The position numbers and the translations under genes were made by a program. Under the pieces are notes generated by a model, which did not search any database, was not told the DNA's origin, and was given only the letters and a program-made list of their open reading frames with translations. Positions 42,303 to 61,828 of a stretch of 64,000 nucleotides of DNA are shown here, in pieces. The stretch spans positions 124,001-188,000 of the forward strand of contig JAJFKR010000020.1 in assembly GCA_021773095.1 (NCBI GenBank). Direction: 5' to 3'. This DNA is from Woeseiaceae bacterium. Its GTDB lineage: Bacteria > Pseudomonadota > Gammaproteobacteria > Steroidobacterales > Woeseiaceae. Position 1 is the stretch's first letter. Every line of letters begins with the position of its first letter.

Positions 42303-42710
42303 TTATTTCTTGCGGTCGACTAAGCTGACAATTTCGTCGGTTTCCCCAACCTCTTCACCGCGGACGAGACGAGCAAACCAGAATGGACGGCCGCGACCAT
42401 TATCCTCTGTTTCAAAGAAAGCGATCCGACAGTCTGCGATAAAACCACAGCCGGGTGAGACCGAACCTGGGACTTGCAGCTCCAGGACACCTTTGTCATT
42501 GGTCGTGCCTAGATACGCATCGCTGTCATTACACCGGAGACGGGCATTAGCGATAGGATTTTCATCAATGTCAGTCAACTCGACAATGACCGTCTCAACA
42601 CGCTTCTTGTAGCAGCCACAAAGCGAAGAGGCGCAGTCGAATTGGGACACGCAACCGGCTAGTGCTATAGCTAATACGGATATAGAACACCGGAGTTTGA
42701 TTTCATTCAC
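42303..42710 (-). CDS. hypothetical lipoprotein, co-transcribed with the dehydrogenase
   Basis: About 135 residues from a GTG at 42710 that overlaps the TGA of the iron-sulphur gene (ORF overlap 8 bases). The N-terminal signal SISVLAIALAGC is a good lipobox. The body (VETVIVELTDIDENPIANARLRCNDSD and LGTTNDKGVLELQV) looks like a carboxypeptidase-regulatory/Ig-like beta-sandwich, with six Cys after the lipidated one (including SLCGCYKK and SPGCGFIADC). I do not recognise the family. The same frame opens further upstream but overlaps the sdhB-like gene. Its location as the last gene of the unit hints at an outer-membrane or periplasmic partner. Confidence 0.7.
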   Translation of the reverse strand: MNEIKLRCSISVLAIALAGCVSQFDCASSLCGCYKKRVETVIVELTDIDENPIANARLRCNDSDAYLGTTNDKGVLELQVPGSVSPGCGFIADCRIAFFETEDNGRGRPFWFARLVRGEEVGETDEIVSLVDRKK

Positions 42711-43458
42711 TCGGGGATCCGCCCGTCGCGATCTTCGTCCCCAAAGTACGCCTGCGGAGGTAAGCATAGACGTCAAGCAGCGGCAGCTCTTTAGGACACA
42801 CATCGGCACAGGCCATCATACCGACACAACCAAACACGCCCTCGGGCCCTGCAACTACTTCAAACCAGTCGGTATCGGTTCGCCCGTCTCGTGGATCCAT
42901 CATGAAACGTGCAATGCGATTCAAGCCGGCTGCAGCGAGGAATTCCTCGTTAATGTTTGCCGCGCCGCAGGAGGCAACACAACAGCCACATTCGATGCAT
43001 CGGTCACCTTCGTATATTGCCGCTGCGATATCGTCACTCATGCGCTGCTCTTCCGCGTCCTTGTCGAACGGCAGCCGCTCATGAATCCATGCCTCGGTTC
43101 GTTCGGCCATTTCCCGGAACCAGGTTCCGGTATCAACCGACAAGTCACCAATGAGTTTGAACGCAGGCAGCGGGTGTAAACGGATTTCTTCCGGCAAGTC
43201 AGCCGTTAATGTCCGACAACCCAGCGCCGGACGGCCGTTCACCATCATTCCACACGACCCGCAGATCGCAGAACGGCAAGCGAAATCGAACTGCAGTCCC
43301 GGGTCCTGAGTTTCGCGTATTTCGCTAAGCGCCATGTACAGCGTCATGTACGGTCTTTCGTCGATCTCAAACGTATCGATATGCGGTTTTGACTCCGGGT
43401 CCTCGGGGTTGTACCGAAAAATCTCGAATCGCAGGCGCCGGATTGCCGAATCAATCAT
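42703..43458 (-). CDS. sdhB: succinate dehydrogenase / fumarate reductase iron-sulphur subunit
   Basis: A 251-residue subunit with the three clusters of SdhB/FrdB: a 2Fe-2S plant-ferredoxin site (CRSAICGSCGMMVNG plus upstream Asp/Cys), a 4Fe-4S site CIECGCCVASCGAAN, and a 3Fe-4S or 4Fe-4S site CVGMMACADVCPKEL. The pattern (GSCGMMVNG, CGCCVASC) resembles the Wolinella-type quinol:fumarate reductase / type B SQR. Four-base overlap with sdhA. Confidence 0.93.
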   Translation of the reverse strand: MIDSAIRRLRFEIFRYNPEDPESKPHIDTFEIDERPYMTLYMALSEIRETQDPGLQFDFACRSAICGSCGMMVNGRPALGCRTLTADLPEEIRLHPLPAFKLIGDLSVDTGTWFREMAERTEAWIHERLPFDKDAEEQRMSDDIAAAIYEGDRCIECGCCVASCGAANINEEFLAAAGLNRIARFMMDPRDGRTDTDWFEVVAGPEGVFGCVGMMACADVCPKELPLLDVYAYLRRRTLGTKIATGGSPSE

Positions 43459-45395
43459 GCCGCTCCTCCAGAGTAGCGACGCAATTGACTGCCCATCGCT
43501 TCAGTGCTTTCCAGTCGCCCCTCTTCGGCCTGACTGACCAGAACCCCTTCGTTGTATTCGTCAACGGATACGTCCATCTCAATGCGTTCGTCGCTCCCGT
43601 AGCCGCGGTGACCCGGCGGCAGATCAATCAGACCTACGCGCTCGTAGCTCAGTGTTGGATCACCGGCATCGGTTTGCCATCGCACCAACGTGCGACTGAG
43701 CCAGTCCTGATCATTCCGCAATGGGTAATCGACGCGAAAATGAGCGCCGCGACTTTCAGTTCGTGCGAGCGCTCCCATTGCAACGGTCAACGCGAGACGC
43801 AGCATACCGGGTAAACGCAGGGCAAATGCGAGCTCGGGGTTCGCGCCCGGCCCCTTCTGGCGCAGCACCGCTTTGTCGCATTCAGAAATCAGATCTTTGA
43901 GCTCATCGACTGCTGCCGCGAGGTCTGCACCGTTTCTGAAAATACCGACTTTGCCAATCATGATTTCGCCGAGCGCATCGCGAATCCCGTAGACACTTCG
44001 GCTATTACCCTCGCGGCGCAGTAAGCTCTGAGATCGCTGTTCCTCCGCGTTCAATGCGTCGAAGGCCAGAGTCGTGCTGGCCTCTAATGTCGCGCCAGAT
44101 GCGTACTCAGCAACTCTCCCGCCGACTACGCGGCCCGCCACCAATGTCTCTGCAAGGCTGTTGCCACCCAGCCGATTGAAGCCATGCATATCCCAGCAAG
44201 CGGCCTCACCGACTGCGTACAAACACGCCATGCCATAGGCTTCGCCGTCTTTATTAACCCGCACACCGCCCATTGAATAGTGTTGCGTCGGGCGTACGGG
44301 AATCAGGTCGTGTGCGGGATTGATGCCGGCAAAGTCGCGGCATATGTCGAACACCTCCAGTAGCTTGGTCGTCAGATGTTCTTCGCCCAGGTGGCGAATG
44401 TCGAGCCACAAATGGCGGCCGTTCGGCGAATCCACACCTTTGCCATCCTGAATGCATTGCATCATGTGTCGTGACACAACATCACGACTCGCGAGCTCCT
44501 GCTTTTCGGGCTCGGCTTCGACCATGAAACGGTGCAGGTTCTTGTCGAGTAGATAACCGCCGTCGCCACGACAGCCTTCTGTGATCAATATGCCGCTGGG
44601 AGACAGCGCCGTCGGATGGAATTGCACGGCCTCCATGTTGCCCAGCGGAACGATGCCGGTACCCAGGGCAAGTGCCGCACCGGTTCCGTAGTTGATCGTT
44701 GCATTTGTTGTGTACTGCCCGTAAATGCGTCCGTAACCACCGGTCGCAATGACCGTTGCCTTGGCCATGACAGCGAAGTAAGTACCAGTACGGAGACACC
44801 TTGCAACGACGCCGTGGCAACGCGTGCCATCGTGTATGAGCGACACGGCTTCAGCGCGATCGCGAACCGTGATACCCAATCGCACGACCTCACTGTCGAC
44901 TGCATACAGCGCAGCGTGCCCGGTGCCTGCGGCTGCGTAACAGGCGCGCCACTTGGCCGTGCCACCGAAATCACGGTGTGTAATCAGACCGTCGTTTTCG
45001 AGCGGCTCTTCGATATCGACGGACTCACCTTTGATAAAATATGTATTCGTACCACCCCGCACCCGCGTCCAGGGAACGCCAAAGTGAGCGAGCTCCCGAA
45101 CGGCTACCGGCGCTTCTTCAGCGAAGATATTGGCGACTTCCTGGTCAGCACCCCAATCCGAGCCACGCACGGTGTCCAGATAATGCACCTCTGGACTGTC
45201 GCCTTCAGCCTTGACGCAGTTTCCCAGCGCCGCCTGCATTCCACCTTGCGCCGCACAACTGTGGCTGCGTCTTGGCGGCACGAGTGAAAGGATTGTGACT
45301 TCCTGTCCCGCTGCGGCTGCTTCCATCGCGCAGCGTTCACCGGCGAGCCCACCGCCGATGACCAGTACATCCGTTGTTGTCATTTGTGTCGTCAT
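43455..45395 (-). CDS. sdhA: succinate dehydrogenase / fumarate reductase flavoprotein subunit
   Basis: A 646-residue FAD protein. VLVIGGGLAGERCAMEAA is the dinucleotide fold, SHSCAAQGG contains the His that binds FAD covalently, QFHPTAL is a substrate-loop motif and RPTQHYSMGGVRV holds the catalytic Arg/His. The gene order C-A-B and sequence flavour match the Wolinella/Bacillus (type B) group. Direction of catalysis (succinate oxidation or fumarate reduction) is not determinable here. Overlaps sdhB and sdhC by 4 bases each. Confidence 0.95.
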   Translation of the reverse strand: MTTQMTTTDVLVIGGGLAGERCAMEAAAAGQEVTILSLVPPRRSHSCAAQGGMQAALGNCVKAEGDSPEVHYLDTVRGSDWGADQEVANIFAEEAPVAVRELAHFGVPWTRVRGGTNTYFIKGESVDIEEPLENDGLITHRDFGGTAKWRACYAAAGTGHAALYAVDSEVVRLGITVRDRAEAVSLIHDGTRCHGVVARCLRTGTYFAVMAKATVIATGGYGRIYGQYTTNATINYGTGAALALGTGIVPLGNMEAVQFHPTALSPSGILITEGCRGDGGYLLDKNLHRFMVEAEPEKQELASRDVVSRHMMQCIQDGKGVDSPNGRHLWLDIRHLGEEHLTTKLLEVFDICRDFAGINPAHDLIPVRPTQHYSMGGVRVNKDGEAYGMACLYAVGEAACWDMHGFNRLGGNSLAETLVAGRVVGGRVAEYASGATLEASTTLAFDALNAEEQRSQSLLRREGNSRSVYGIRDALGEIMIGKVGIFRNGADLAAAVDELKDLISECDKAVLRQKGPGANPELAFALRLPGMLRLALTVAMGALARTESRGAHFRVDYPLRNDQDWLSRTLVRWQTDAGDPTLSYERVGLIDLPPGHRGYGSDERIEMDVSVDEYNEGVLVSQAEEGRLESTEAMGSQLRRYSGGAA

Positions 45396-46168
45396 GACGA
45401 CACCTCACCGAGCAGGAATTCGAGCGGTGGCGCTACCAAACCCGCCAGAACCAGGAGCGTTAATGCGCCCACTCCAAGTATCAGCCAGAAAATAACCTGC
45501 TCGATCCGGTGCAGATAGCGACGATGCGGCAGGAAATCCGATCCCCACTTAACGGCCAGCCGATACAGGCCGACACTCGCGTGAAATTCGACGCAAAGTA
45601 ACAGCACCGCATAAGGCAACCACAATCCAGCCGCTACCCGCGCCATGCTGGTCGTCGATTCAATGCCCGGGTGCTCACCAAATAGCGGCGTAAAGACATC
45701 GATACCCAACAGAATGAGATGGAAGCTGCCGATGACCAAAATCACCATTCCGGTCCGCACCTGCCAGATCCAGAGCATCGACTCAAGGTGCGGCACGAAC
45801 GGCGAATTGTCGCGGCGTGATGGAACCTTCTCGCGACCCGACTGATTGAGACCTTTGGCCAGCTCGATCATGCGGCGACGTTCCTGTAGTTGCGCCGGGA
45901 TTTTCCGCGATGCGAAAATAGCGTGCACGATGAAAATAGCAAATATGGCGGCAACGGTCGGCTGTGCGATGTAGTAATCCTCCAGCATCGTCGCCATCCA
46001 GTTGAAGCCACGTTCGCCCGTCAGTATAGAGCCAACCAGGACGATATGGCCCCACATGAACAACGCCAGCACCAGACCGGTGCCGCCGCTGACAAGCTCA
46101 TAGACCATCTGGCGGCGCGCCGTGACTGACGAATCGACAACATTCGTGTTAGCAGCGGTAGTCTTCAT
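45392..46168 (-). CDS. sdhC: diheme cytochrome b membrane anchor (FrdC/SdhC type)
   Basis: A 258-residue five-helix membrane protein matching the length of Wolinella FrdC (256). Visible histidines in GHIVLVGSIL, IVHAIFASR, GSFHLILLGIDVF and LCVEFHASVGLYRL are candidate axial ligands of two b hemes. It anchors the A/B subunits and exchanges electrons with quinone. It is 1 base after the multiheme gene stop, forming a transcriptional unit. Confidence 0.9.
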   Translation of the reverse strand: MKTTAANTNVVDSSVTARRQMVYELVSGGTGLVLALFMWGHIVLVGSILTGERGFNWMATMLEDYYIAQPTVAAIFAIFIVHAIFASRKIPAQLQERRRMIELAKGLNQSGREKVPSRRDNSPFVPHLESMLWIWQVRTGMVILVIGSFHLILLGIDVFTPLFGEHPGIESTTSMARVAAGLWLPYAVLLLCVEFHASVGLYRLAVKWGSDFLPHRRYLHRIEQVIFWLILGVGALTLLVLAGLVAPPLEFLLGEVSS

Positions 46169-46169
46169 A

Positions 46170-47576
46170 TCATTCAGGATTCAAAGTCGACATGATTTCC
46201 GGATCTTCTTCCTCTTCCGCCAGCAAGACATGACAGGTGTCGCATTCGTAGGTTAGCTTTTCGCGCTCGGGCGTGCGCATTCTCTTGTTGTGACAACGAT
46301 AACAACCGGGCGACTGCTCGTGACCAATATGGTTGGGATAGGTATTCCACCAAACCTGCATTTGCGGAAATACATTCACTGAGTAGATGTCACCCAGTGC
46401 GTCAGCGGCCGTCGTAATTGCCTCTGGTTCCTCTCCGGCAATCTCCGGATAATTGTCCGCATAAAACTGCGTCAGCCCGTCCGTTATAGCCACACGTGCA
46501 AGCTCATGTGAGTCATATTCAGCATCGATGACACGCAGACTTTCGCGCTTCACAAACGGCAATGTCCGGTCGATGAGACCGGCGCTCATCGCCTTGTCGA
46601 TCTCGTTGCCGGGCGGCTGATAAATATGACTCGGTCTATTGTGGCAGTCGACACAGTCCATTGTTCTCCACACACCACCCTCTTCCGGCGCCTTCCTGTC
46701 ACTGAATTCGGTCATCACACCATCGCTATCGGTTAGTTCGACCTCATAAATTTCTTCGCGCGTCTCATCCGAGCGATAGCGAATTGAAACATCCGGGTCG
46801 ACGTGCCAGTGAATTCCGGTTGAGCCAACACCTCCGGCGCCACCAACACGCAGCAATAACGCCGTCGTTAGTTCGGTATTTTCCTCATCCTCCTCGTAAT
46901 GCTTTCTTACCGATAATTTGTCGCCCACGAACTTCGTCGGCCAGTGACATTGTTCACAGGTATCCCGGGCCGGACGCAAATCGTGCAGTGGCGTCGGAAT
47001 CGGCCGCGGATAAATATCCAGCGCCACAGCGATCAACTGCCAGGCACCGTCCATCTTGGATTTGACGAACCAGTCAGCACCTGGGCCGATATGGCACTCG
47101 GCACATTTGACTCGTGAGTGGGGTGACCTCTGATGCGCCGTGTGCTCAGGTTCCATCACCGAGTGACAGGCCATGCCACAAAACTCGACTGACTCCATCA
47201 CTTCCACGCCCTTATAAGTCGCGGCACTCAGTATGATGATATTGAACATCGTTGCGGCCAGGAAAATCAGCAACCAATGACGGGTCCTGGGCACGTTAAG
47301 ATCGAAAACGGGCATTAGCGGCATACCTTCACCGCCGGATATCCGGTTCATTTTTCGACGCCACAATACCGCACCGATCGGAATCAGGATCAAGCCGGTG
47401 ACAAAAATCATGGGCAGAATGAGGTAGGTCAGAATGCCAAGATAAGGACCACCCTCGAAGCCGAATTGTTCAAGCGCGAACAGACTCAGCATGAGCACCA
47501 GACTCGCGACCGCGAGCGCCGTGCCGATCAGGCTGATGATGCTACGTGTGATGGATACAATAAAATTCTTAATCAT
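46170..47576 (-). CDS. NapC/NrfH-like six-heme membrane cytochrome c
   Basis: A 468-residue protein with two or three N-terminal transmembrane segments (SLIGTALAVASLVLMLSLFAL; LIFLAATMFNIIILSAATY) followed by a periplasmic multiheme region. It has five CxxCH sites (CAECH, CEQCH, CVDCH, CYRCH, CDTCH) and one CxxxCH in FCGMACHSVMEPEHTAHQ (CGMAC-H). The latter is the form seen in the NapC/NirT-like family with long C-terminus found in many Bacteroidetes and Proteobacteria. It probably oxidises quinol and passes electrons to periplasmic carriers. Confidence 0.88.
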   Translation of the reverse strand: MIKNFIVSITRSIISLIGTALAVASLVLMLSLFALEQFGFEGGPYLGILTYLILPMIFVTGLILIPIGAVLWRRKMNRISGGEGMPLMPVFDLNVPRTRHWLLIFLAATMFNIIILSAATYKGVEVMESVEFCGMACHSVMEPEHTAHQRSPHSRVKCAECHIGPGADWFVKSKMDGAWQLIAVALDIYPRPIPTPLHDLRPARDTCEQCHWPTKFVGDKLSVRKHYEEDEENTELTTALLLRVGGAGGVGSTGIHWHVDPDVSIRYRSDETREEIYEVELTDSDGVMTEFSDRKAPEEGGVWRTMDCVDCHNRPSHIYQPPGNEIDKAMSAGLIDRTLPFVKRESLRVIDAEYDSHELARVAITDGLTQFYADNYPEIAGEEPEAITTAADALGDIYSVNVFPQMQVWWNTYPNHIGHEQSPGCYRCHNKRMRTPEREKLTYECDTCHVLLAEEEEDPEIMSTLNPE

Positions 47577-47601: not shown

Positions 47602-49548
47602 TCAAGTACCTGACAATGCCAAGATTATCCCAATAGCCAGTGCTATGCCGATAAGTAGAAACACCGTACCCCATATGTATGCTTTGCGTATCTCAGCAGT
47701 TGTTGGCGCGTCCACCAGGTAGTCATCCAGCTCGTTATTATCAAGCAGTCGTTGATATTCGAGCGGCCTTTCCGCTTTGAATTGTTGTAGCGGCATCTTG
47801 CCCAGGAACGCCACCAGGTCCATCGGGAAACTCTCGGGGCGCAAGTGTGTATGAAAAAAATGAAACACAAAGATGAATCCGGTAGCCAGGAGCGCCTCAT
47901 CGCTATGAATTACATAGGCTGCGTTCAGCACCCAACCCGGCATGAGGATAGTGAATAAACCCGGTAGCCAGAGCATCAACCCTGACAGGCCGATGATTAG
48001 TACACCCCAAAATACGGCGAGATAATCGAATTTCTCAAAATACGTCCACCTATCACCCGGAGGTCGCTCGCCCAGGTAAAGAAAGTAACGAATATTGGCA
48101 ATGAAATCCCGCAGGTCTTTGGGCTGCGGAACCATAGAGTTCGGTCCCCACAGCAGTCCCTTCTCTTTGTTGATGGCCCAGCGAAAAAAGAGATGGCCGA
48201 GGTGAATCACCATATATCCAAACGTGCCGAGTGCCGCGAAACGGTGAATAAACCGCGCGGAATCGACTCCACCAAGCAGGTTAATCAACGTCTGCGCCCA
48301 GGGCGCCGCGTGAAACTTTAGCGGCAATCCAGTCATGGCGAGAAGCAGAAACGTCAGAATCACAACCACATGCATGCGGCTGTTCATTTTCGAAAATCGC
48401 CTGACGTATTGACCGGTCCTGTCGATTTTCTCGCCAAATTCACGACGCATCGATCCGACCAGCGACCGCTGCAGCCAAAGAATGTCATGAATACCGAAAA
48501 ATGCGAATACGCCGATCAAAAGTCCGGTCATGAATATCCAGACGATGTACACCACGAAATCGTCGTCTGGGTCAGTCGGATCGTTGTGTGGGTCGTAACT
48601 AATGAACGATTGCGTTATGCCATCATGACAACGGCCGCAGGTCGCCACGAGATTCGCGGAGTTGACACTCGACAGCGGATCGTCAGCCGGCAGATTATTG
48701 TGTGGCGTGTGGCAATCGGCGCAGGTTGCACCACTGACGAAACCAAGATCATTGGCCTTGCCGTGAAAGCTGTCACGAAATGTCGTCAGGTACTCATCGT
48801 GGCAACCACCGCAGGTGTCTGCCGACGCCAAACGACTGACGGCAGTCTTAGGATCGGCGATCTCATGTGTGGCGTGGCAATCAATACAGACCGGGCCGTC
48901 CTCACCCGCTTGCCAATTTTTGCCATGTGCGCTTTGCGCCCTCCATTTCTCGAGCAATAGGAGATGACAACTGCCACACATTTCCGGCGAGTTATCATGG
49001 GCTGCCGGGGCCTTGTCGCTCGCGATCGCGATTATGCGATGGTCGCCATGACAGTCACTGCAACTGGGTGCGTCGATCAACCCGGATAACAGCAATGCCT
49101 TGCCGTGTTCGCTGGTCAGGTAGCCATCGATCAGTGATGCCGGTGTATCGTGACAAGCACCACATTGCCTGATCTGATTAACGGGCGAAACAGCCGACGC
49201 GAGATCGTCGACGTTAAGAATTTCATGCGGTGCGCCGTGGCAATCATTGCACAACACATTCTCGTCATGAACACTGCGACCCAGACCTCGAAGTATTTTG
49301 CCGTGACATTCCGCACAGCTGTTTTCGTTTGTCAGCGGCTCGAGGTCGTTGCCCTCGTGCTCCGTTGTGACGTTAGTGTGGCAATCCAGACAGGCAGGGT
49401 CCGGATGTGCAGTAGAAACCGGCGCTACGCCGTCATGACATTCGGCACAATTTATCTCTTGTGCCTGGGCAAATGATGCAAAAATTAGTAATAGAGCAAA
49501 CTTGATTGAGCGCCGTGGGATACCTGAGACACACACAGCCGCATTCAT
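47602..49548 (-). CDS. 11-heme cytochrome c fused to cytochrome b (CbcL-like quinol oxidoreductase)
   Basis: A 648-residue protein. After a signal peptide (residues about 10-29) a periplasmic domain of about 300 residues carries 11 CxxCH sites (CAECH, CLDCH, CAECH, CNDCH, CGACH, CSDCH, CGSCH, CIDCH, CGGCH, CADCH, CGRCH). It is followed by a transmembrane domain resembling the formate-dehydrogenase gamma / HydC cytochrome b: HILW-type helices, FIHRFAALGTFGYMVIHLGHLFF and FVFHFFHTHLRP, with His ligands for two b hemes, and a last helix. This is the architecture of Geobacter CbcL, a quinol-oxidising entry to extracellular electron transfer. It is the first gene of the unit ending with the lipoprotein at 42303. 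Confidence 0.9.
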   Translation of the reverse strand: MNAAVCVSGIPRRSIKFALLLIFASFAQAQEINCAECHDGVAPVSTAHPDPACLDCHTNVTTEHEGNDLEPLTNENSCAECHGKILRGLGRSVHDENVLCNDCHGAPHEILNVDDLASAVSPVNQIRQCGACHDTPASLIDGYLTSEHGKALLLSGLIDAPSCSDCHGDHRIIAIASDKAPAAHDNSPEMCGSCHLLLLEKWRAQSAHGKNWQAGEDGPVCIDCHATHEIADPKTAVSRLASADTCGGCHDEYLTTFRDSFHGKANDLGFVSGATCADCHTPHNNLPADDPLSSVNSANLVATCGRCHDGITQSFISYDPHNDPTDPDDDFVVYIVWIFMTGLLIGVFAFFGIHDILWLQRSLVGSMRREFGEKIDRTGQYVRRFSKMNSRMHVVVILTFLLLAMTGLPLKFHAAPWAQTLINLLGGVDSARFIHRFAALGTFGYMVIHLGHLFFRWAINKEKGLLWGPNSMVPQPKDLRDFIANIRYFLYLGERPPGDRWTYFEKFDYLAVFWGVLIIGLSGLMLWLPGLFTILMPGWVLNAAYVIHSDEALLATGFIFVFHFFHTHLRPESFPMDLVAFLGKMPLQQFKAERPLEYQRLLDNNELDDYLVDAPTTAEIRKAYIWGTVFLLIGIALAIGIILALSGT

Positions 49549-49648: not shown

Positions 49649-50023
49649 TTATGGATCGTATAACGGCCCAATGTCCATGTAGATTTTGTATCTCGAAATC
49701 AACTCACCATCAAACTCAAGAACATTCGTGAATGGCAGCTTTATCTTGGTCGCGTCGTGCCGTGTATAGGTGACCTCACCCTCGCAAACGACGGCGTCAC
49801 CTGCCGCAACGACCCTAGCCGGGTCATGGCACAGGCCGGCAATTGTAGAGAAAAAGCCATCCACAGCCTCGTGGATGGCTTCTTGGCCCTGTACCGTCGG
49901 TGCCGAACCGAAACGAAACGATGCCTCGTCAGTCAGAAAGCCGACAAAACGTCCCGTATCCTTGGCATCGATCGCCGCAAACAAGTCGTCAAGACGAGCG
50001 ATCGCAGAATCGATAGCTGTCAC
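49649..50023 (-). CDS. SnoaL/NTF2-like protein
   Basis: A 124-residue protein of the SnoaL-like fold: IARLDDLFAAIDAKDTGRFVGFLTDEASFRFGSAP (split), QGQEAIHEAVDGFF and LPFTNVLEFDGELISRYKIYMDIGPLY. It starts with GTG whose last bases overlap the TGA of the diheme cytochrome gene (GTGA). Function unknown; perhaps it is unrelated to electron transfer but co-transcribed with it. Confidence 0.85.
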   Translation of the reverse strand: MTAIDSAIARLDDLFAAIDAKDTGRFVGFLTDEASFRFGSAPTVQGQEAIHEAVDGFFSTIAGLCHDPARVVAAGDAVVCEGEVTYTRHDATKIKLPFTNVLEFDGELISRYKIYMDIGPLYDP

Positions 50024-50628
50024 TGCTGACTAGCGTAGAAATGTAACAGTGCCGTGACGTCGTCAGCGCTCAACGCCTCCAGTTTTTCCTTCATTTTCTT
50101 ATCCTGGGGCCGATCACCGGATAAATAATCCGCGAAGGAATTCTCAAGATACGCCATCCATTGACCCGCCAGGATTGAAGCTTCGTCCTCAACGTTCGAG
50201 CCACCATCCGAATGGCACTTATCGCACTGCTGCTCGTGAATCGCTGCCCCGGCCTCAGCCAGCGCCGCATCAAAATCCTGAGCTGCAGGTACAAATTCGA
50301 GCTCGGAATAAGCATCTCCAAGCATCTCGATATCGTCATCACTCAAGTCAGCGGAAATCGCACACATCGTCGTTGCGGCGCGATTTGTGTCGCCCTGTCG
50401 ATATTCACTTTCTGAGCAGGGCCGCTCTTCATCTCGATACATGAATAGCGCATCGGCGGTGCCGAATGCGTCGATACCTGCAATTGTTGGGACATCACCC
50501 CATTGGCTAACGCCGTTATCGCCGTGGCAGTCGTTACAGACGTCCATCTGAGTACCAATATCCGCGGCACTTGTCGATGTAACAGCCAGAAACACTCCCG
50601 CTGCCAACAAAATTCTATATGCGCTCAT
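50020..50628 (-). CDS. diheme cytochrome c (cytochrome c4-like)
   Basis: A 202-residue exported cytochrome: signal peptide ILLAAGVFLAVTSTSAA, then two CxxCH sites (CNDCHGDNGVSQWGDVP and CDKCHSDGGSN), each with a downstream Met (FMYRDEERP and MKEKL), the layout of a class I diheme cytochrome. An extra Cys pair (RPCSESE and TTMCAISADLS) may form a disulphide. I start at the ATG at 50628 (AGGGAG six bases upstream); the frame is open to 51024 but that part overlaps the divergent promoter. It is a candidate periplasmic shuttle between inner-membrane and outer-membrane modules. Confidence 0.88.
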   Translation of the reverse strand: MSAYRILLAAGVFLAVTSTSAADIGTQMDVCNDCHGDNGVSQWGDVPTIAGIDAFGTADALFMYRDEERPCSESEYRQGDTNRAATTMCAISADLSDDDIEMLGDAYSELEFVPAAQDFDAALAEAGAAIHEQQCDKCHSDGGSNVEDEASILAGQWMAYLENSFADYLSGDRPQDKKMKEKLEALSADDVTALLHFYASQQ

Positions 50629-51758: not shown

Positions 51759-51803
51759 CAGTGGACGCGTGTGCAACGCAACACGATCGACAGGGTAACG
51801 AAA

Positions 51804-53918: not shown

Positions 53919-54006
53919 ACATCCCAACCGATCGAAACCGATGCGCTGCAATACCATTCATTGCGTAGGTATGAGTACACGATTCGCCCTCACTTTCTGC
54001 GTATTT

Positions 54007-54047: not shown

Positions 54048-54102
54048 GAATATATTCTATTCGGTGAAGTAGAAAATCAAATACGTTCATGAGGAGGCGA
54101 TC

Positions 54103-55752
54103 ATGAAACTGTTACGGTATGGCTCTTGGTTGGGGGCGATTGTTCTAACAATCGCATTGGCTGGTTGTTCAGGCGATGATGGTTCCCCGGGAAGAGACGG
54201 TATTGACGGCACTGCTGGGACCGATGGCGCTGATGGCGCTGATGGTACTGATGGCACGGGAGCTTCGGCATCTCGCGACCTGCCAACACTACAGGGGCAC
54301 ATTCCGATGTTCCCGGAGGACAATTTTCACGGCAATGGCGTAACCGGTATGGATGACGACCGAGTACTGCCGTACGACGTTCAGGCCGCTTTTAACAACG
54401 ACACCTTCTTCTGGCGCGTTTCTTATCGGGGTAACGAAGGCAAACGCCACGAGTACATTCGCTATACAAATGGCGCATGGCAACGGGAAGGCGGCGATCG
54501 TCGCGACGCTCAGGCCACCCTGGATGGCGATGTACAGCAAGGCGATCAAACGATAAATTCGACCATTTATGAACAGCGCACAACGATCATGGTCAATGAT
54601 CCGAATGCCGCCACTAACGTTACTGAATTCGGTAAGTTTGGTTGCTTCCTGACCTGCCACAATTACAGTCGGCATATGCCGGAGTGGACCGCTGCAAACG
54701 GACACGATGGAAAATACGTCATCCCCGGTGACACAACCGGTGCTGCCAGTGGCGATATCGTTCTTGATCTCTGGCACTGGCGTGGCGCACGCAGCAACCC
54801 GATCGGTCGGGCCGACGACCAGAATATTCTTGCATTGGACTTCATAGCTAACGATGGCAATGGTGGTGACACCGGCGGTCGCAAAGGCGATAGTGGTACA
54901 AGCGTATTCACGTCACAGGGATTTGACCCTGTAGCTGGCCCGGACTTCCTGTTAAACCCTGATACAACATCGGGCAAGTTCGCGTTCACCTGGGATAACT
55001 TCTGGGAAACACCGTTCTACTACATGGTCAGGGACGATGCGCTGCAAAGCGGACCTCTGTCACCCAACCCGGGCACTATAGCTCTCGCTGACGCTGTAGC
55101 ACTGGGATACGCGCCAACGGAAGGTGATACGGTACCGCGACGCATCCTGCGCGGCGGCGCGGGCAGTCGAGCAGACATCACTGCGACTGGCACAACGTTT
55201 ACACCACTGACGCCCGATAGTTCCTACGGCGTCTGGAACGTGCAAATGCAGCGGGCTATGGATACTGGTAATCCGGACGATATTGCAATGGTTCCCGGGC
55301 AAACTTACGAAGCGGGTTTTGAGGTGCATCTGTGGGAGTACACAACACGCGATCATTATGTATCGTTCCCGGTAACTGTTTCGGTTGGTCCAAATGCGAG
55401 CGCTGACATCCAGGCGGTTTCCGTTGCCGGCGCCGGGCCACAGCAGGGACCGAACTGGGATGAAATCCCGATGACGCGACTCGATCTGTTCCAGCCCGGT
55501 ATCACCACTTGGGAATTCCTGACCGGTGAGAATGAAAACCTGAACAAGGCATACACCAATGCCCAGGGTCAGTTGGTCGGCCAGGCACACTCAGGGTCGG
55601 GCGCGGTGAATAGCGGCACAGCCTGTTCGGGGTGCCACAACGTGCTCACCTCCGACCCCGTCGCCCCGCCGATCTTCGATGCCGGACCGATGGAAGACCT
55701 AACTGAGCGCCGCGGAGGAATCTGGGAAGACACGCCGGTAGTTACACCCTAG
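54103..55752 (+). CDS. surface lipoprotein with G-x-x linker and ethylbenzene-dehydrogenase-like heme domain
   Basis: A 549-residue protein. The signal ends LAGC (C22), so it is a lipoprotein. Residues about 23-55 are collagen-like G-x-x triplets (GSPGRDGIDGTAGTDGADG), as occur just after the lipobox of Shewanella MtrC/OmcA. The body (about 60-490) resembles the EB_dh heme domain of DMSO-reductase-family gamma subunits (DVQAAFNNDTFFWRVSYRG, DNFWETPFYYM, VWNVQMQRAM, PGQTYEAGFEVHLWEYTTRDHYVSFPVTV (split)). It has a CxxxCH site at C181 (CFLTCHN) and a CxxCH at C508 (CSGCHN). It is the last gene of the mtrA-mtrB unit and the likely external face of the conduit. Confidence 0.85.
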   Translation: MKLLRYGSWLGAIVLTIALAGCSGDDGSPGRDGIDGTAGTDGADGADGTDGTGASASRDLPTLQGHIPMFPEDNFHGNGVTGMDDDRVLPYDVQAAFNNDTFFWRVSYRGNEGKRHEYIRYTNGAWQREGGDRRDAQATLDGDVQQGDQTINSTIYEQRTTIMVNDPNAATNVTEFGKFGCFLTCHNYSRHMPEWTAANGHDGKYVIPGDTTGAASGDIVLDLWHWRGARSNPIGRADDQNILALDFIANDGNGGDTGGRKGDSGTSVFTSQGFDPVAGPDFLLNPDTTSGKFAFTWDNFWETPFYYMVRDDALQSGPLSPNPGTIALADAVALGYAPTEGDTVPRRILRGGAGSRADITATGTTFTPLTPDSSYGVWNVQMQRAMDTGNPDDIAMVPGQTYEAGFEVHLWEYTTRDHYVSFPVTVSVGPNASADIQAVSVAGAGPQQGPNWDEIPMTRLDLFQPGITTWEFLTGENENLNKAYTNAQGQLVGQAHSGSGAVNSGTACSGCHNVLTSDPVAPPIFDAGPMEDLTERRGGIWEDTPVVTP

Positions 55753-55774
55753 TTTGAGTTGTTTGACGTACAGT

Positions 55775-55794
55775 CACGGGGAGAAATCCCCGTG
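55775..55794 (+). terminator. Rho-independent terminator after the lipoprotein gene
   Basis: Perfect hairpin: CACGGGGA, GAAA loop (a GNRA tetraloop), TCCCCGTG, followed by GCTTTCTT. It lies 22 bases after the stop codon and ends the mtrA-mtrB-lipoprotein unit. Confidence 0.85.
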
Positions 55795-56092
55795 GCTTTC
55801 TTAGTTGGCCTAGACATCATGTAGTGACCGTACATTGAATTGGAACCTAAGAATCGGACAGAGTCAAAGGGATCGAAGTAGAGGGGTCGGGTTCAATCGA
55901 TTCCGTATCGTGCGCCCAGGAACTGACGCTCTTGGCTTCTATTGGATCAACTGAGACTGTCCACCCGGATGTCTACTCGACTATACTGGTGAGTCGACCT
56001 TGAGGGGATCAGGTTTATTTGATTTCGTGTTGACGTCGTTAGGTGTTAGATCAATGCGGCTAAAGAAAGCCTGCGTGCATCGTGCCGCCCAA
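55795..56092. other. non-coding stretch with degenerate GGGGTC repeats
   Basis: No supported gene. Two similar motifs, GAGGGGTCGGGTTCAATCG near 55883 and GAGGGGATCAGGTTTATTTG near 56001, look like diverged direct repeats of the type often seen flanking REP-associated transposase remnants. The composition is patchy. I see no tRNA or complete IS end. Confidence 0.35.
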
Positions 56093-56386: not shown

Positions 56387-56847
56387 TGCGCCATCAATGC
56401 AATCTGCGACGATGGATATTCGCCGATCGCTCAGACCAGCTCTAATAATTTCACACTGCCGCCTGTTTGGATTCAGAAAACGCCATGTTCGCGATGCGAC
56501 TTGGTCATGCCGGTCCAGGTGAGCTCCACGAAGGATTTTTCAATCATACACCTCTAACCTTGGGTTGATGAGCGTGCCACGTACCCGAAAGTGATTTGCC
56601 GGGGTTGGATTGGTGCACTGAATTGCTGGCGGGTTTCCTATGGTTGCTGTATTGCAATATACGAAGACAAAAACAACGACTTGTGGAACCTTTTTGGTCT
56701 GCAATGCGTGTTAATAGACTAAAGTTGCTGATTTTTCAGCGAAATTTGTGCGGCCGAGTATTTCGCTGGATCAGGCAATAATCGATGATTTGCCAGTCAG
56801 GGAGAATGATTGTCCGCTGATCCTCGCAATCGTTGCAGGAGACAACA
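56387..56847. other. 461-base stretch, no confident gene
   Basis: Contains the unstarted extension of the frame 56093-56386 on the minus strand up to about 56545, and a 24-codon minus-strand frame starting ATGATTGAAAAATCC that shifts relative to it, consistent with decay. The last 100 bases before 56848 are the promoter region of the MarR-like gene; GCAGGAGACAACA is its ribosome-binding site. Confidence 0.35.
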
Positions 56848-57201
56848 ATGTGTGACACCAAGGATAAGAAAAAATTTTCAGATCGCTCAATATCGGAGCA
56901 ATCCGCGGCGCTTTTCATCACCCAGGATGACTCGCTGGCATCCTTGTTGCTCAATCACGGTATCAAGGTGCGCGACTTCGTATTGATGTCATTTCTATCT
57001 GATCAAGGACCAATGACAGTCAACCAATTGGCGCGCGTTATTGGGATTGAGCCAGAAAGGGTCTTAGAGAGTTTGAAACGACTCTCCGCGGCAGGATTAT
57101 TGCTGCGTGATCCGAATACCACAGACTCAAAATCGGCAGAACTGGCTAAGCTGACGGGACGTGGTCAAAACATTGTGGGTCGAATCAACAAACAACTTTA
57201 G
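56848..57201 (+). CDS. MarR-type winged-helix regulator
   Basis: A 117-residue DNA-binding protein: LSDQGPMTVNQLARVIGIEPERVLESLKRLSAAGLLLRDPNTTDSKSAELAKLTGRGQNIV is a MarR-like winged helix (residues about 45-110) with the short dimerisation helices around it. I start at ATG 56848, with AGGAG 6 bases upstream. It is a lone gene between a decayed region and the membrane protein; its target could be either adjacent operon. Confidence 0.75.
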   Translation: MCDTKDKKKFSDRSISEQSAALFITQDDSLASLLLNHGIKVRDFVLMSFLSDQGPMTVNQLARVIGIEPERVLESLKRLSAAGLLLRDPNTTDSKSAELAKLTGRGQNIVGRINKQL

Positions 57202-57430
57202 AAAAACCGGAAAATCCCAATGGTTGCGTCTTTCAAGAACGAGTCTTCTTCTAGTATCGAATTGCCCGCGGGATTTACCGTCCAAGTATGTTCGAATGAC
57301 GGCTGACTACGATTCTTGTTGTGCATCGAGCGGTGTAACGACGATGGTGTGTTTAGCATCGTCGTACTGCGACGGCAACGCTTTTTGGGGCGTGAAATGG
57401 CCGCTCATGACAGCAACCGGGCCGCTAGAC

Positions 57431-59101
57431 CTAGTCGCGACTTAATAACCTGGCCACCAGGATCAATGCACTGCCAACCAGTGCGAACGCCACGAAAAGA
57501 GTGACGGGCTGACCATTCGGGAAATCCTCAAGAAACAGCTTGAAGCCTACGAGAACCAACACCGGATAAACCAGCCAGCGCGCCTCCGGCCAGCGCTTGA
57601 AACGGCTGGACAGCGCCAGCGTTACTGATGATGCGGCCAGCACCGCCGTGCGTAATGCTGCCAACCTGGCCAGATCCGCATTCGGACCATCAACGCCGGC
57701 AAGTACTGGTGCCAGCAATACGACCAGCAGTCCGCCGACTTCCCAAACGGACAGCGCCAATACGATCAACTGTGGCAAACCAGCGAGCACACCCCAACGT
57801 TCGGACTGTTGTGCGACGGGAATAAACAGACAGGCCACCGTCGTCAGGGCAATGAAGACGTGCCAGGGAAGCAGCGCTGGCCATGTGGCAATGACATCGC
57901 CCGCGAGCGCCTGAGAACCCGTCGCCAGAATGCCGGAGGCAACCCCCGCCGCCACCAGGAGAAACGTACACTGGAGACTCAGCGCCACCCGACCGTAGCG
58001 ACCACTAAGAAAGGCCATTGCCAGAGCCATTACTGACCAGGCAGCGGCGGCTTTACCCGGCGACATCACCAGGGCACTACCGGCGACCACCAATATCAGT
58101 CCCAATGTGGAATAGAAAAAGAAATTGCGCCCGCGAACGGCACGCGTTTTCGGCGTAGATGCCATCGCGTAAGCACAAGCACTCAGGAGCAGGCTCAAAA
58201 TACCGGCTTCGGTGAGAATATCGCGCCCGAAACGGGATGCTGTGACAGCCGTCAGGAATGAGATACCGATGATCAACACGCCCTGAACCGTTTCGAATAT
58301 ACCGACGACCTGCCCCCGAATGTGTGTGCGGATGCCAAAGCTCCCCAGGTAAACGGCTAACAGCAAACCCGCCATGAGGAATGGCGTTTCTGCGTACACG
58401 GACCAGCGATCGCTAACGCTCAGCACGATCAGAACCACGACGCCGGCATTCGCACCCACCGCGCCAAGCCACTGTACGCCCAGCCAGTCCCGTCGGTAGA
58501 CGGTCCACAAAGATCCCAGCCCAAGTAGAATCAGGAAAACAGCCGTTTCCACAGCACTGTGCGATGTATTTAGTACCACGAAAGCAGTCACGATGCCTGC
58601 GGCCGCCGCTATCCAGCACAGACTTCGCAGGTTTCTGATGGCCGCCACCCAAATGGATATCGCACAAAATAGGGTCAGCGCAACAACACCCTGCCGGCCC
58701 GACAATAATTCGAATCGGGTGGTCGCTTCTACGAAAAGTGGTAGTGCGAGAAATACGGACGAGGCGCCGTAGAACAGCGCGTTAAGACCCCGGTCCGGAT
58801 CGCGCCCGGTTCGAAACGCCATGAACATCCACCACAACGCGTAGACTGTACCCATCAGGATGCCGACGGCTGTCGGCACGATTCCCTCATCAGTGATGGC
58901 ACGCAGAAGAAAAGCACCGCCAAATATCAGAAGAACCTTGCCGATATGAGTAGGGGCATTTGACAGGAAACCGGCGCTAACTTGCGGAGCGGTTTCGTCC
59001 AGGCCGATAACCTTAGTATCCGGTCGTGTAGCTTCGAGGGCGCTCAGCCGCTGCTCAATTGCTGCAAGGCGCAACTCCATCTCAGCATTGCTTATTCCCA
59101 T
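57431..59101 (-). CDS. large predicted membrane protein (DUF2339-like)
   Basis: A 556-residue protein with a short N-terminal coiled coil (MELRLAAIEQRLSALEA) and about 16-18 hydrophobic segments, as in DUF2339-type membrane proteins of unknown function. No catalytic motif is visible. It is the last gene of the unit that begins with the tetraheme cytochrome (3 bases after the NrfD gene), so it may be related to the assembly or function of that complex. Assignment of the family is tentative. Confidence 0.75.
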   Translation of the reverse strand: MGISNAEMELRLAAIEQRLSALEATRPDTKVIGLDETAPQVSAGFLSNAPTHIGKVLLIFGGAFLLRAITDEGIVPTAVGILMGTVYALWWMFMAFRTGRDPDRGLNALFYGASSVFLALPLFVEATTRFELLSGRQGVVALTLFCAISIWVAAIRNLRSLCWIAAAAGIVTAFVVLNTSHSAVETAVFLILLGLGSLWTVYRRDWLGVQWLGAVGANAGVVVLIVLSVSDRWSVYAETPFLMAGLLLAVYLGSFGIRTHIRGQVVGIFETVQGVLIIGISFLTAVTASRFGRDILTEAGILSLLLSACAYAMASTPKTRAVRGRNFFFYSTLGLILVVAGSALVMSPGKAAAAWSVMALAMAFLSGRYGRVALSLQCTFLLVAAGVASGILATGSQALAGDVIATWPALLPWHVFIALTTVACLFIPVAQQSERWGVLAGLPQLIVLALSVWEVGGLLVVLLAPVLAGVDGPNADLARLAALRTAVLAASSVTLALSSRFKRWPEARWLVYPVLVLVGFKLFLEDFPNGQPVTLFVAFALVGSALILVARLLSRD

Positions 59102-59104
59102 GGC

Positions 59105-60358
59105 CTAGCTACCTTCTGTGTCCCTCCGCAGCGAAGGTACAAACTTGTTTATGATCCAGAACAGGAAGAATGGCGTTGCGATAACCGTGAGCGCGCCGAA
59201 CACACCTTCTTTGAAGGTTTCAAGGCTGTGCGGAATAACCGGTATCTCGTAGTGCATGTAGCCGGAGAACGACAAGGAGAAAGCCTGGCCACCGATAACA
59301 ACATTCCAGCGCATCATGAATACGCCGAACAGAACGAGAATAAGGGCAATGACTGTCCGCAACAGGGTTCGTCGTGGCAGCACCAGGAGTACAAAGGGAA
59401 CAAGATTCCCCAGCGTGTACTGAAGTACGAAAATGTTCATGAAGTCCTTGCCGTACATTACTGAACGCAGAATGTCCCAGGACTTCATGGCCGTATAACC
59501 GCGGAAGATCAGATCGAGCATTTCCAGACTGATCGCCGCGACGAGGAAACCCAGCAAGTACCTGGCTGCCTTGTTGATGACCTCTTCTTCCGCGCCTTTG
59601 ATCTGGCCGGCCTCCAGAGCGCCACCACCGCGTCGCCGCAGGAACGCCTTCCATTCCATGATCACTATGTAAGTAAACATGCAAAGAGCGATGCCCGATA
59701 CAACGGCGGACATGATGAAGATCACTGGCATCAACGGCGACATCCATAAGGCATTGGCCTTGACGGAGCCGAAAATGAACCCTGCATAGCCATGAAGAAA
59801 ACACGCGACTGGTATGCCGATGGCAGCGAGAACCGTCGCCGCTTTCTTGTCTATTTTGAGTGCGCCTTCGCTGATGTCGTACGCACCGATTGTCAGAACA
59901 CGGTAAACCGTTCGCTTCATCAAGTTCGACAATCCGGCCTTCTGCTTCAGCGCGTAAACCTGTTCAACGAAATATTTTCGGTAAACGAACCATATTTCAC
60001 TGAGCACGATCAGTGCATAGGTCGTGAATACAATGCCAAAAGCCGCGATCGCCGATGTGAAATGGGGCGTAAGCAGAGGTTCCATCGCCCGCGTTGGCTG
60101 CTGCAAGTGCAGCAACAATGGCAGCGCTGCAACGGGCAGTAACGCCAGCGAAAATACGAGTGAAAACTGAGCGATTTCCTTGAGGTCTTTCTGCCCAAAA
60201 ACGTGGTACAGCGACGACAGTACGAATGCGCCCGCTACCAGACCCGTCATGTACGGATACATGACAATCTGAATGCTCCAGTAAATGAATTCGTTGGGAT
60301 AAACGAACAGTTCTTTTATGGTCCACTCTATTCCGTGAACAACCGGTTCATCGAGCAT
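59105..60358 (-). CDS. nrfD: NrfD/PsrC-type quinone-interacting membrane subunit
   Basis: A 417-residue membrane protein with 8-9 helices typical of NrfD/PsrC/DmsC-like subunits: a first segment WSIQIVMYPYMTGLVAGAFVLSSLY, the FLHGYAGFIFGSVKA segment and the long C-terminal FVLLVLPRRTLLRTVIALI. This family binds quinone and hands electrons to a FeS partner. It has no heme. It lies 4 bases after the FeS gene. Confidence 0.9.
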   Translation of the reverse strand: MLDEPVVHGIEWTIKELFVYPNEFIYWSIQIVMYPYMTGLVAGAFVLSSLYHVFGQKDLKEIAQFSLVFSLALLPVAALPLLLHLQQPTRAMEPLLTPHFTSAIAAFGIVFTTYALIVLSEIWFVYRKYFVEQVYALKQKAGLSNLMKRTVYRVLTIGAYDISEGALKIDKKAATVLAAIGIPVACFLHGYAGFIFGSVKANALWMSPLMPVIFIMSAVVSGIALCMFTYIVIMEWKAFLRRRGGGALEAGQIKGAEEEVINKAARYLLGFLVAAISLEMLDLIFRGYTAMKSWDILRSVMYGKDFMNIFVLQYTLGNLVPFVLLVLPRRTLLRTVIALILVLFGVFMMRWNVVIGGQAFSLSFSGYMHYEIPVIPHSLETFKEGVFGALTVIATPFFLFWIINKFVPSLRRDTEGS

Positions 60359-60362
60359 CAGA

Positions 60363-61133
60363 TCACCTCACTTCCGCATCGAGGCCAATGTAAAAGACAT
60401 GTGGCTTGGTACCATATTCGTCTTTAAGCACCGAAACTCTTTCGGTCCTGATGATATTGGCCACCGGATCATCCGGGTCTTTCAGATTCGCAATTCGCCG
60501 GGCCCCAAAAGAGCAATTCTCGACACAGGCCGGATCCATGCCATTGCTGATGCGGTGGTAACAGAAGTTGCACTTGTCAGCGACTTTCTCCTCGGGATGG
60601 AAGAAGCGGACTCCGTAGGGACAAGCCATGATGCAATAGCCACATCCTATGCACCATTCCCTGTCGATCAGCACAATGCCGTCGTGGGTCTGATAAGTCG
60701 CACCGACAGGGCACACCTGAACACAGGCCGGGTTGTCACATTGATTGCATAACTTGGGAACAAAGAATGCCTTGGCGATATCCTCCGGATCGATTTCTTC
60801 GTCACGAATTTTGTCGTCAATAAAACCGTCGCGCCCACCCATGGGCGAATCAATATGAGTACTTCCGCCCTTCGTGACTACGTATCGCTCAACCCATGTA
60901 CGTGTAACCGCAGCATCGTAGGGAATTTCATTCTCGTTCTTACAGGCCTTTACGCATAATCCGCAGCCGACGCATTTTGTTGTGTCTACTAGAAATGCCC
61001 ATCGTGTTTTTGATTCAGAAAGTGCCGCAGCGGCTTCCGCCTGACTGATGAGCGTAAACGCACTCAGTGGCAAGGCGGATACCAGCGAGCCACCCACGGT
61101 ATCTTTCAGGAAGTCCCTTCGAGAACAGGTCAT
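60363..61133 (-). CDS. Tat-exported 4Fe-4S ferredoxin-type subunit (NrfC/DmsB-like)
   Basis: A 256-residue protein with a twin-arginine signal (SRRDFLKDTVGG) and then four cysteine clusters: CVGCGLCVKACKNENEIP, CNQCDNPACVQVCPVGATY, CIGCGYCIMACPYGVRFF and CNFCYHRISNGMDPACVENCSFGARR, the NrfC/DmsB/PsrB pattern for four 4Fe-4S clusters. It should act in the periplasm between the NrfD quinone site and the cytochrome. Overlaps the cytochrome gene by 4 bases. Confidence 0.94.
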   Translation of the reverse strand: MTCSRRDFLKDTVGGSLVSALPLSAFTLISQAEAAAALSESKTRWAFLVDTTKCVGCGLCVKACKNENEIPYDAAVTRTWVERYVVTKGGSTHIDSPMGGRDGFIDDKIRDEEIDPEDIAKAFFVPKLCNQCDNPACVQVCPVGATYQTHDGIVLIDREWCIGCGYCIMACPYGVRFFHPEEKVADKCNFCYHRISNGMDPACVENCSFGARRIANLKDPDDPVANIIRTERVSVLKDEYGTKPHVFYIGLDAEVR

Positions 61134-61615
61134 TCCGAATCCTCCTCTTCCACATCCTCTTGGGGATCGTGCGGGTTATGGCACTTGACGCATTCATAGC
61201 GACGCTTGTGCCGCCTGTCTTCGACGCTTAAGAGCTCACCTCGGGCACTGTTGGGATATTCGAGAAACGCATGACACCGGAGGCAAAGTTCCCGGGTGGT
61301 GTCGAGAGGCAAAAACTCCTTGTCATCCGGATGGTTAACGGATGGACCGTGGCAGTTTTCGCATTCAACAGGCGCATGGGTTGACGCATTAAGCTTCAGT
61401 ACGTTTTCCTCGTGACATTCGACGCAGGATTCCCTGCCCCGATACTTAACCGGGAAGTCTTTCCATTCCTGAATATTGCTCAGACGGTGATAACCGTAGG
61501 TAAAGTTCCGGCCATGAACTCCGAAATCATCGGGAACCAGGAACTGTTGAGCAACGAGGATCGAACCGACCAATCCAATCGCCACCCATAACGGGCGCAG
61601 TATGTGCCACTTCAT
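61130..61615 (-). CDS. membrane-anchored tetraheme cytochrome c
   Basis: A 161-residue protein with an N-terminal anchor (ILRPLWVAIGLVGSILVAQQFLV) and four CxxCH sites (CVECH, CENCH, CLRCH, CVKCH), ending with an acidic tail. I start at the ATG at 61615, with GGAGG 5 bases upstream; the frame is open upstream to 61663. It resembles NrfB/CymA-like or cytochrome subunits that accompany NrfCD modules. First gene of the four-gene unit. Confidence 0.9.
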   Translation of the reverse strand: MKWHILRPLWVAIGLVGSILVAQQFLVPDDFGVHGRNFTYGYHRLSNIQEWKDFPVKYRGRESCVECHEENVLKLNASTHAPVECENCHGPSVNHPDDKEFLPLDTTRELCLRCHAFLEYPNSARGELLSVEDRRHKRRYECVKCHNPHDPQEDVEEEDSE

Positions 61616-61828
61616 CACCACCTCCCACAAGCTTCTATCTTTATGAATACGTGGCGGGGTCAATCAGTTCAATACGTACAACCCGTATCAAAAACTTAAT
61701 AGTTGATCGTATATTTTAGTCAGTCGGCGAATACTTTTTGAACCACGCAAAAATGTGATTATTAGCATTACCGTTGACCGTCCCCTGTTCTGATATAGTC
61801 GTACGTTCCCACCAAATACGGAGCACAC
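61616..61828. promoter_or_regulatory. divergent promoter region
   Basis: The segment between the tetraheme cytochrome (minus) and the FKBP leader (plus). A weak plus-strand pair is TTGACC (61774) and TATAGT (61794), with a short 14-base spacer. The region is AT-rich around 61680-61760. Not verified. Confidence 0.25.

Follow-up and report, generated by a model that had tools for sequence, protein, structure and literature searches.

A predicted electron-export island of a Woeseiaceae bacterium with an MtrAB conduit, no neighboring mtrC, and an EB_dh-domain lipoprotein

How might electrons leave an MtrAB outer-membrane conduit whose genes have no mtrC beside them? This question is raised by an island of redox genes in a Woeseiaceae bacterium (assembly GCA_021773095.1, contig JAJFKR010000020.1), located in a stretch of 64,000 nucleotides (contig positions 124,001 to 188,000, forward strand), hereafter called the window, to which all positions below refer. 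The host draft genome measures 3.41 Mb in 42 contigs and is 89% complete; the island sits on a 376-kb contig, and both of its flanks are present. A preliminary description, made from the letters alone, had proposed electron flow from quinone to the surface and found the combination of modules unfamiliar. Our analysis confirms that the electron-transfer island is real and of a known kind; its one striking variation is the lack of MtrC together with the presence, next to an mtrAB pair that was itself replaced, of an EB_dh lipoprotein that was apparently acquired.

An MtrAB conduit without mtrC

The conduit genes and the features that follow them are:

50811..51758, + strand: MtrA/DmsE decaheme cytochrome with ten CXXCH motifs (TIGR03508, 269.5 bits, cut-off 192.2)
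51771..53918, + strand: MtrB/PioB outer-membrane barrel, 715 aa (TIGR03509, 357.9 bits, cut-off 240.05; PF11854, 387.1 bits, cut-off 23)
54103..55752, + strand: lipoprotein with a lipobox, a collagen-like linker, and an EB_dh domain, hemes at CFLTCH and CSGCH (PF09459, 87.2 bits, cut-off 33.3)
55772..55797, + strand: intrinsic-terminator-like hairpin of 11 pairs behind the EB_dh gene (terminator scan)
56833..57201, + strand: MarR-like regulator, in a stretch unmatched in the relatives G048 and G036 (PF01047, 29.7 bits; no NCBIfam match)

All three proteins score above the curated cut-offs of their families (269.5, 357.9, and 87.2 bits), and the suspicion that MtrA and MtrB might belong to unrelated porin-cytochrome families can be set aside. 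As in the MtrCAB and DmsEF conduits of Shewanella and many others, mtrA and mtrB are adjacent and on the same strand. Unlike those systems, the window holds no MtrC/OmcA match, and an EB_dh lipoprotein gene follows mtrB. No mtrC lies beside mtrA in the window, where the gap between the upstream diheme gene and mtrA is only ~180 bp; the surface decaheme MtrC/OmcA that is encoded with mtrAB in an MtrCAB system is absent there. The OmcA/MtrC profile TIGR03507 gave no match at E 1e-3 in the 89% complete host genome. As a positive control, it recovered the MtrC of G048 with 478 bits and the OmcA of G048 with 129.6 bits, the latter clear though below the cut-off of 209.3. No remnant of the G048 OmcA, MtrC, or Crp-type regulator was found in the window, beyond a likeness of linkers described below.

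We compared the locus with a family set of 107 genomes, the host's own included. MtrB matches at E 1e-3 occur in 55 of them (that of G011, at E 5.6e-4, being doubtful) and OmcA/MtrC-family matches in 65, of which 51 exceed the cut-off. Three of the 55 MtrB-positive genomes show no OmcA/MtrC match, namely that of the window, the doubtful G011, and G043, in which just 0.9 kb separates mtrB from the end of its contig; the only match in G058 is weak (28.5 bits). Gene order was read on stretches of up to 20 kb around mtrAB in 29 relatives, picked mostly for long contigs and high MtrB similarity. A decaheme mtrC stands beside mtrA in 24 of these: in 23, the gene immediately upstream of mtrA is an ORF of 741-841 aa that carries ten heme motifs, and in G070, near a contig end, the TIGR03507 profile is matched along its full length with 504.9 bits. 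Three further relatives (G007, G101, and G006) carry an mtrC piece with 8, 6, and 3 motifs, respectively, cut by the contig end, and the DNA upstream of mtrA is unreadable in the remaining two (G058 and G040). Every relative of the 29 with readable DNA has mtrC beside mtrA. A full-length EB_dh lipoprotein was found in none of the other 106 family genomes, and its presence in the place of MtrC is a feature peculiar to the window genome among those examined.

MtrB and the genes flanking the conduit have different histories

The nearest relative seen is G048, with identities of 96% for NrfD, 93% for SdhA and the FeS subunit, 89% for the ImcH-type protein, 87% for the tetraheme cytochrome, 83% for the CbcL-like and diheme proteins and ALDH, 79% for DUF2339, 75% for ApbE, and 62% for the SnoaL-like protein. 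The conduit proteins are lower, at 61% for MtrA and 46% for MtrB. MtrB evolves fast (52% between G048 and G049); therefore, the identities alone prove little.

The trees are more informative. In the diheme tree, the window sequence joins G048 (99/97) and then G049 and G036 (100/99), and in the CbcL tree, it joins G048 and G049 (95/100). The window MtrB falls instead in a 14-row clade (100/99) that contains none of G048, G036, and G049, its nearest neighbor being G007 (88/96, on an unstarred branch). A topology holding the window MtrB with those of G048 and G036 was rejected, being 113.6 log units worse (p-AU 1e-13). Because the flanking genes follow the sister species G048 and mtrB follows another clade, we conclude that the conduit was exchanged. 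Furthermore, a piece of mtrC precedes mtrA in G007, which makes a secondary loss of MtrC in the window lineage probable. In the MtrA tree, too, the window stands apart from G048 and G036, on no starred branch. As a side observation, the relative G093 (G093:C3) carries two MtrB matches ~31 kb apart, one of them just 32% identical to the window MtrB.

The other side of mtrB differs as well. Between mtrB and the DUF2339 gene, G048 has 14 bp, whereas the window has 3.5 kb that hold the EB_dh gene, the MarR-like gene, and unmatched DNA; positions 53851-57450 gave no nucleotide match to L048 or L119. The EB_dh lipoprotein gene was apparently acquired horizontally.

The EB_dh lipoprotein

In addition to its PF09459 domain, the EB_dh protein shows a fold match to EbdC, the gamma subunit of ethylbenzene dehydrogenase, and to NXR-C, and its heme cysteines and histidines are invariant across five aligned sequences (window included). 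It differs from EbdC and NXR-C in having a lipobox, a collagen-like linker, a CX3CH within the domain, and an extra C-terminal CXXCH module, with no molybdenum partner in the island. The start of the protein resembles the plan of the relatives' MtrC, which consists of a signal, a lipobox, and a Gly-rich linker: it shares 43% identity with residues 1-54 of the G047 MtrC (E 1e-4, in low-complexity sequence) and compares with the G048 MtrC at E 0.06.

Homologues that are 58-78% identical occur in metagenome-assembled genomes (MAGs) labeled Acidobacteriota and Deltaproteobacteria. In the delta MAG B10_G4, the EB_dh gene comes last in a multiheme cluster that also holds NrfD and FeS genes; an ORF with 28 heme motifs (L084, 7494-9551) lies just upstream of it, preceded by two 13-motif ORFs and NrfD. 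In three further diheme EB_dh cytochromes (L090, L091, and L094), a heme module similar by visual comparison to the C-terminal one of the window protein stands at the N terminus, which amounts to a changed domain order. Terminator-like sites such as the hairpin behind the EB_dh gene are not enriched (8 found against a mean of 7.2 in shuffles).

Quinone-facing modules and the periplasmic carrier

The redox genes of the island span 42703 to 61663 in what are likely three or four transcription units. A leftward unit from 50628 to 42703 reads diheme, SnoaL, CbcL-like, ImcH-type, FrdC, FrdA, FrdB; the rightward unit reads mtrA, mtrB, and, after 184 bp, the EB_dh lipoprotein gene; a second leftward unit from 61663 to 57431 reads tetraheme, FeS, NrfD, DUF2339. 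Besides the conduit, the genes are:

42703..43458, - strand: FrdB/SdhB iron-sulfur subunit, 251 aa (Fer2_3, 96.8 bits; Fer4_8, 39 bits)
43455..45395, - strand: FrdA/SdhA flavoprotein, 646 aa (NF006383, fumarate reductase flavoprotein, 938.2 bits, cut-off 663)
45392..46168, - strand: FrdC/SdhC single cytochrome b anchor, five transmembrane (TM) peaks (PF01127, 36 bits, cut-off 25.8)
46170..47576, - strand: putative ImcH-type hexaheme quinol dehydrogenase, 468 aa (PF03264, 31.1 bits, cut-off 24.1)
47602..49548, - strand: CbcL-like cytochrome, 11 heme c motifs and then a multi-TM half, 648 aa (Cytochrome_C7, 59.6 bits)
49649..50023, - strand: SnoaL-like small protein, a recurring neighbor of the diheme gene (PF12680, 55.8 bits; synteny)
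50020..50628, - strand: diheme carrier with an N-terminal hydrophobic segment, 202 aa (two CXXCH motifs)
57431..59101, - strand: DUF2339 membrane protein, last gene of the NrfD unit (PF10101, 41.1 bits)
59105..60358, - strand: NrfD-type quinone-facing membrane subunit (PF03916, 119.8 bits, cut-off 25.8)
60363..61133, - strand: TtrB/DsrO-like 4Fe-4S subunit with an N-terminal RRDFLK motif (Fer4_11, 86.8 bits; best NCBIfam model NF011569, below cut-off)
61130..61663, - strand: membrane-anchored tetraheme cytochrome (four CXXCH motifs, one TM peak)

This content agrees with the preliminary description apart from small corrections. The redox genes start at 42703, not 42303, because no Pfam family matches the first ORF (42303-42809), which overlaps the gene of the FeS subunit, and the diheme carrier is taken as 202 aa instead of a 334-aa ORF because relatives align to the shorter length. 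The 35 heme c attachment motifs counted there were found again (6+11+2+10+2+4 = 35, two being CX3CH); they are real, as residue shuffles of the 14 island proteins gave a mean of 0.40 motifs and never more than 4 across 2000 trials.

Judged by its profile score, the flavoprotein is of the fumarate reductase type, which bears out the succinate/fumarate complex proposed earlier. The best NCBIfam model for the anchor is fumarate reductase cytochrome b (118.8 bits, below the cut-off of 187). A single cytochrome b anchor is presumably the arrangement of type B complexes.

The 468-aa protein, first described as six-heme and NapC-like, does have six hemes. Its TM peaks lie at 5, 52, and 102, followed by a CX3CH at 133 and five CX2CH motifs. 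The published ImcH layout comprises three N-terminal TM segments, a CX3CH beside the last of them, and 5-9 CX2CH motifs (PMC6295460). By layout, the protein is thus likened to ImcH and not to a plain NapC. The same source describes the CbcL/MtrH/MtoC family as an N-terminal multiheme c part of 3-23 motifs followed by a C-terminal six-TM diheme b-type domain (HydC/FdnI-like). The heme c part of the 648-aa protein fits this description, with all 11 motifs within residues 34-304; its C-terminal half shows four strong and two weaker hydropathy peaks, and its matches to b-type cytochrome models are below cut-off (PF01292, 26.9 bits; formate-DH gamma, E 4.5e-5). Both proteins recall Geobacter CbcL and ImcH in their arrangement of heme and TM parts; they differ in motif number (11 against 9 and 6 against 7, respectively) and in being sited near mtrAB. 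In the excerpted text of that 2018 survey, mtrAB was not found adjacent to imcH, and no organism had all of CymA, CbcL, and ImcH (PMC6295460).

Much of this recurs around mtrAB in the 29 relatives: the diheme gene in 21 (that of G005 at 38% identity), the CbcL-like gene in 10 (those of G099 and G076 only 37-38% identical; that of G036, cut at the stretch end, was left out), SdhC/SdhA in 8, the ImcH-type gene in 6, and the NrfD unit beside mtrB in 2. These counts are lower bounds because many stretches or contigs end early. The multi-TM DUF2339 protein closes the NrfD unit in the window, G048, and G036 alike. In some relatives, the CbcL-like and ImcH-type proteins give way to a four-heme protein encoded near the diheme gene, so the inner-membrane quinol modules seem to have been exchanged too. 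That of G047 belongs to the NapC/NirT family (PF03264, 203.9 bits); the others were recognized solely by their length, number of motifs, and N terminus. Such a protein occupies the place of the two window genes in L034 (15447-16076, NapC/NirT family), L037 (15397-16026), and L044 (15422-16051). In the literature, mtrA, mtrB, and mtrC are reported in benthic Woeseiaceae (PMC12175321), and fumarate reductase genes adjoin some mtrCAB clusters (PMC8805035). The benthic MAGs resemble the window genome in having mtrA and mtrB and differ from it in that the window genome has no mtrC match; neither EB_dh nor ImcH comes up in the excerpted text of that study. Hence the clusters do co-occur in relatives, and most of the island, including the conduit, the diheme carrier, and the quinone modules, is a family trait; the novelty claimed for the combination narrows to the EB_dh lipoprotein in the place of MtrC.

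Genes beside the island

33908..34888, + strand: MenA-type prenyltransferase, nqrA next (TIGR00751, 115.9 bits, cut-off 102.15)

Between 33908 and 42196, menA, an nqr cluster, apbE, and a CBS protein gene adjoin the island. The ORF after menA is NqrA (TIGR01936, 546.6 bits, cut-off 321.05), those in the place of nqrB-E are named by position only, and an nqrF-like gene, apbE, and the CBS protein gene follow. In G048, nqrF, apbE, and the CBS gene occupy the same place, with a MenA-like ORF before them. MenA hints at a capacity for menaquinone, so that a low-potential quinone becomes plausible. A nap cluster lies ~13 kb beyond the island (NapA, 1567.6 bits; NapC, 316.8 bits, both above cut-off, with a putative diheme ORF between them), so the host looks able to use nitrate also.

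Discussion

With slightly more confidence than doubt, we read the island as a quinol-to-surface electron export chain of the Mtr kind, in which an ancestral mtrCAB was exchanged and an acquired EB_dh lipoprotein serves as the outer-face cap. At the inner membrane, the ImcH-type, CbcL-like, and NrfD/FeS/tetraheme modules would oxidize quinol, whichever suits the potential being used, as has been described for ImcH and CbcL of Geobacter (PMC12307469). The diheme cytochrome would ferry the electrons through the periplasm, and MtrA within MtrB would conduct them across the outer membrane. The surface decaheme MtrC and OmcA would have been lost in the window lineage, with mtrAB coming from a different clade of the family. 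The EB_dh lipoprotein, tethered to the outer membrane by its lipid anchor and collagen-like linker, would then dock on MtrAB, accept electrons at the outer face, and hand them to an extracellular acceptor. The electron flow proposed in the preliminary description thereby stands as the best-supported reading, and export is the likeliest function as judged from gene content, while the surface-cap role given to the lipoprotein remains putative.

Some surface partner is to be expected because Shewanella MtrC cut to its first two domains supported no reduction of flavin or Fe(III) citrate through MtrAB, and Shewanella MtrAB cells did not reduce soluble OmcA (PMC12304082, in the excerpted text). From the same truncation, loss of MtrC should change the range of acceptors, unless another protein takes over; the EB_dh lipoprotein may do so. 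MtrAB homologues without MtrC are known from the MtoAB/PioAB conduits of Fe(II) oxidizers, as stated for Gallionella and Sideroxydans (PMC8805035). The window differs from these in that its MtrC was probably lost secondarily and that quinone modules and a fumarate complex lie alongside.

Several observations weigh against an exchanged conduit capped by the EB_dh protein. Its gene begins 184 bp after the end of mtrB and may be transcribed from a promoter of its own, and two hemes are a short chain for a cap. EB_dh homologues occur in three genomes without detectable MtrB; in G465, the EB_dh gene lies on a contig other than that of mtrAB, and this genome retains OmcA/MtrC-family genes, one of them ~12 kb from its mtrB. 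The MtrA tree yields no starred placement for the window. Finally, because the genome is 89% complete and surface cytochromes elsewhere were sought with the OmcA/MtrC model only, another, unlinked surface partner may exist.

The strongest competing explanation, which we regard as unlikely but deserving of attention, draws on some of these points: the EB_dh lipoprotein would be an unrelated neighbor with some other surface redox job, and MtrAB would work alone or with an unlinked partner. The gap behind mtrB, a ribosome-binding-site-like sequence of the gene's own, the homologues in genomes without detectable MtrB, and the separate location in G465 are all consistent with it. Against it, the gene stands at the conduit in the sole examined family genome that is missing mtrC, the protein shares the lipobox and linker plan of MtrC, and in MAG B10_G4 its homologue belongs to a multiheme/NrfD cluster.

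The chain could also run inward, with a donor outside the cell (Fe(II), a solid, or a partner cell) supplying the surface protein with electrons for quinone reduction. We consider this improbable. Both directions of transfer have been linked to MtrAB/PioAB/MtoAB and CbcL/MtoC relatives (PMC6295460, PMC8805035), the related NXR-C has a high-potential heme b (PMC8387239), and the closest likeness of FoxC from archaeal Fe(II) oxidizers is said to be to the gamma subunit of ethylbenzene dehydrogenase (PMC10654088). However, in the excerpted text of PMC6295460, ImcH is implicated so far in quinol oxidation only; the fumarate/succinate complex and MenA fit anaerobic export, and benthic Woeseiaceae with mtrCAB have been read as iron reducers (PMC12175321).

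It is very improbable that the EB_dh protein serves an extracellular molybdenum enzyme as its gamma (heme) subunit, the part played by EB_dh domains in ethylbenzene dehydrogenase and NXR, although Shewanella offers a precedent in DmsAB, which is fed by DmsEF (PMC9048795). Type II DMSO reductase gamma subunits are encoded with alpha and beta molybdenum subunits, and profile searches found no molybdenum-enzyme gene within the island. None of the five PF00384 places in the host genome is beside the EB_dh gene: one is NapA, proteins of 704 and 910 aa score 118 and 89.5 bits against a type II cut-off of 984.75, and the remaining pair (945 and 717 aa) was assessed only visually. We give equally little credence to a chimeric assembly with DNA from another species, for although the genome is a draft (42 contigs, 89% complete), the mtrB phylogeny differs from that of the flanks, and the intergenic stretches around the EB_dh gene are GC-poorer (0.43 and 0.50), two independent misjoins would be needed, one per side, both flanks are syntenic to G048 at 62-96% identity, and gene GC and GC3 show no break.

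As for the reading of an exchanged conduit with an EB_dh cap, it has been proposed that the addition of other surface cytochromes can adapt the MtrAB core (PMC8805035). We tentatively suggest, as an idea somewhat short of even odds, that EB_dh lipoproteins form a new class of surface tips that can be exchanged on outer-membrane conduits. A heme domain best known as a relay subunit of molybdenum enzymes would have gained covalently bound hemes and a lipid anchor and taken the place of the decaheme MtrC on MtrAB, the probable benefit being access to another extracellular partner. In the window, quinone synthesis and Na+-pumping NADH dehydrogenase genes adjoin a predicted electron-export island, and quinol oxidases of the ImcH and CbcL types, known from Geobacter, now appear beside an Mtr conduit in another group, probably of marine sediment bacteria. 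The window genome looks like a natural tip swap whose sister species, G048 and G036, keep the old tip; the role of the surface protein in setting substrate, potential, and direction would thus be testable by exchanging a single gene.

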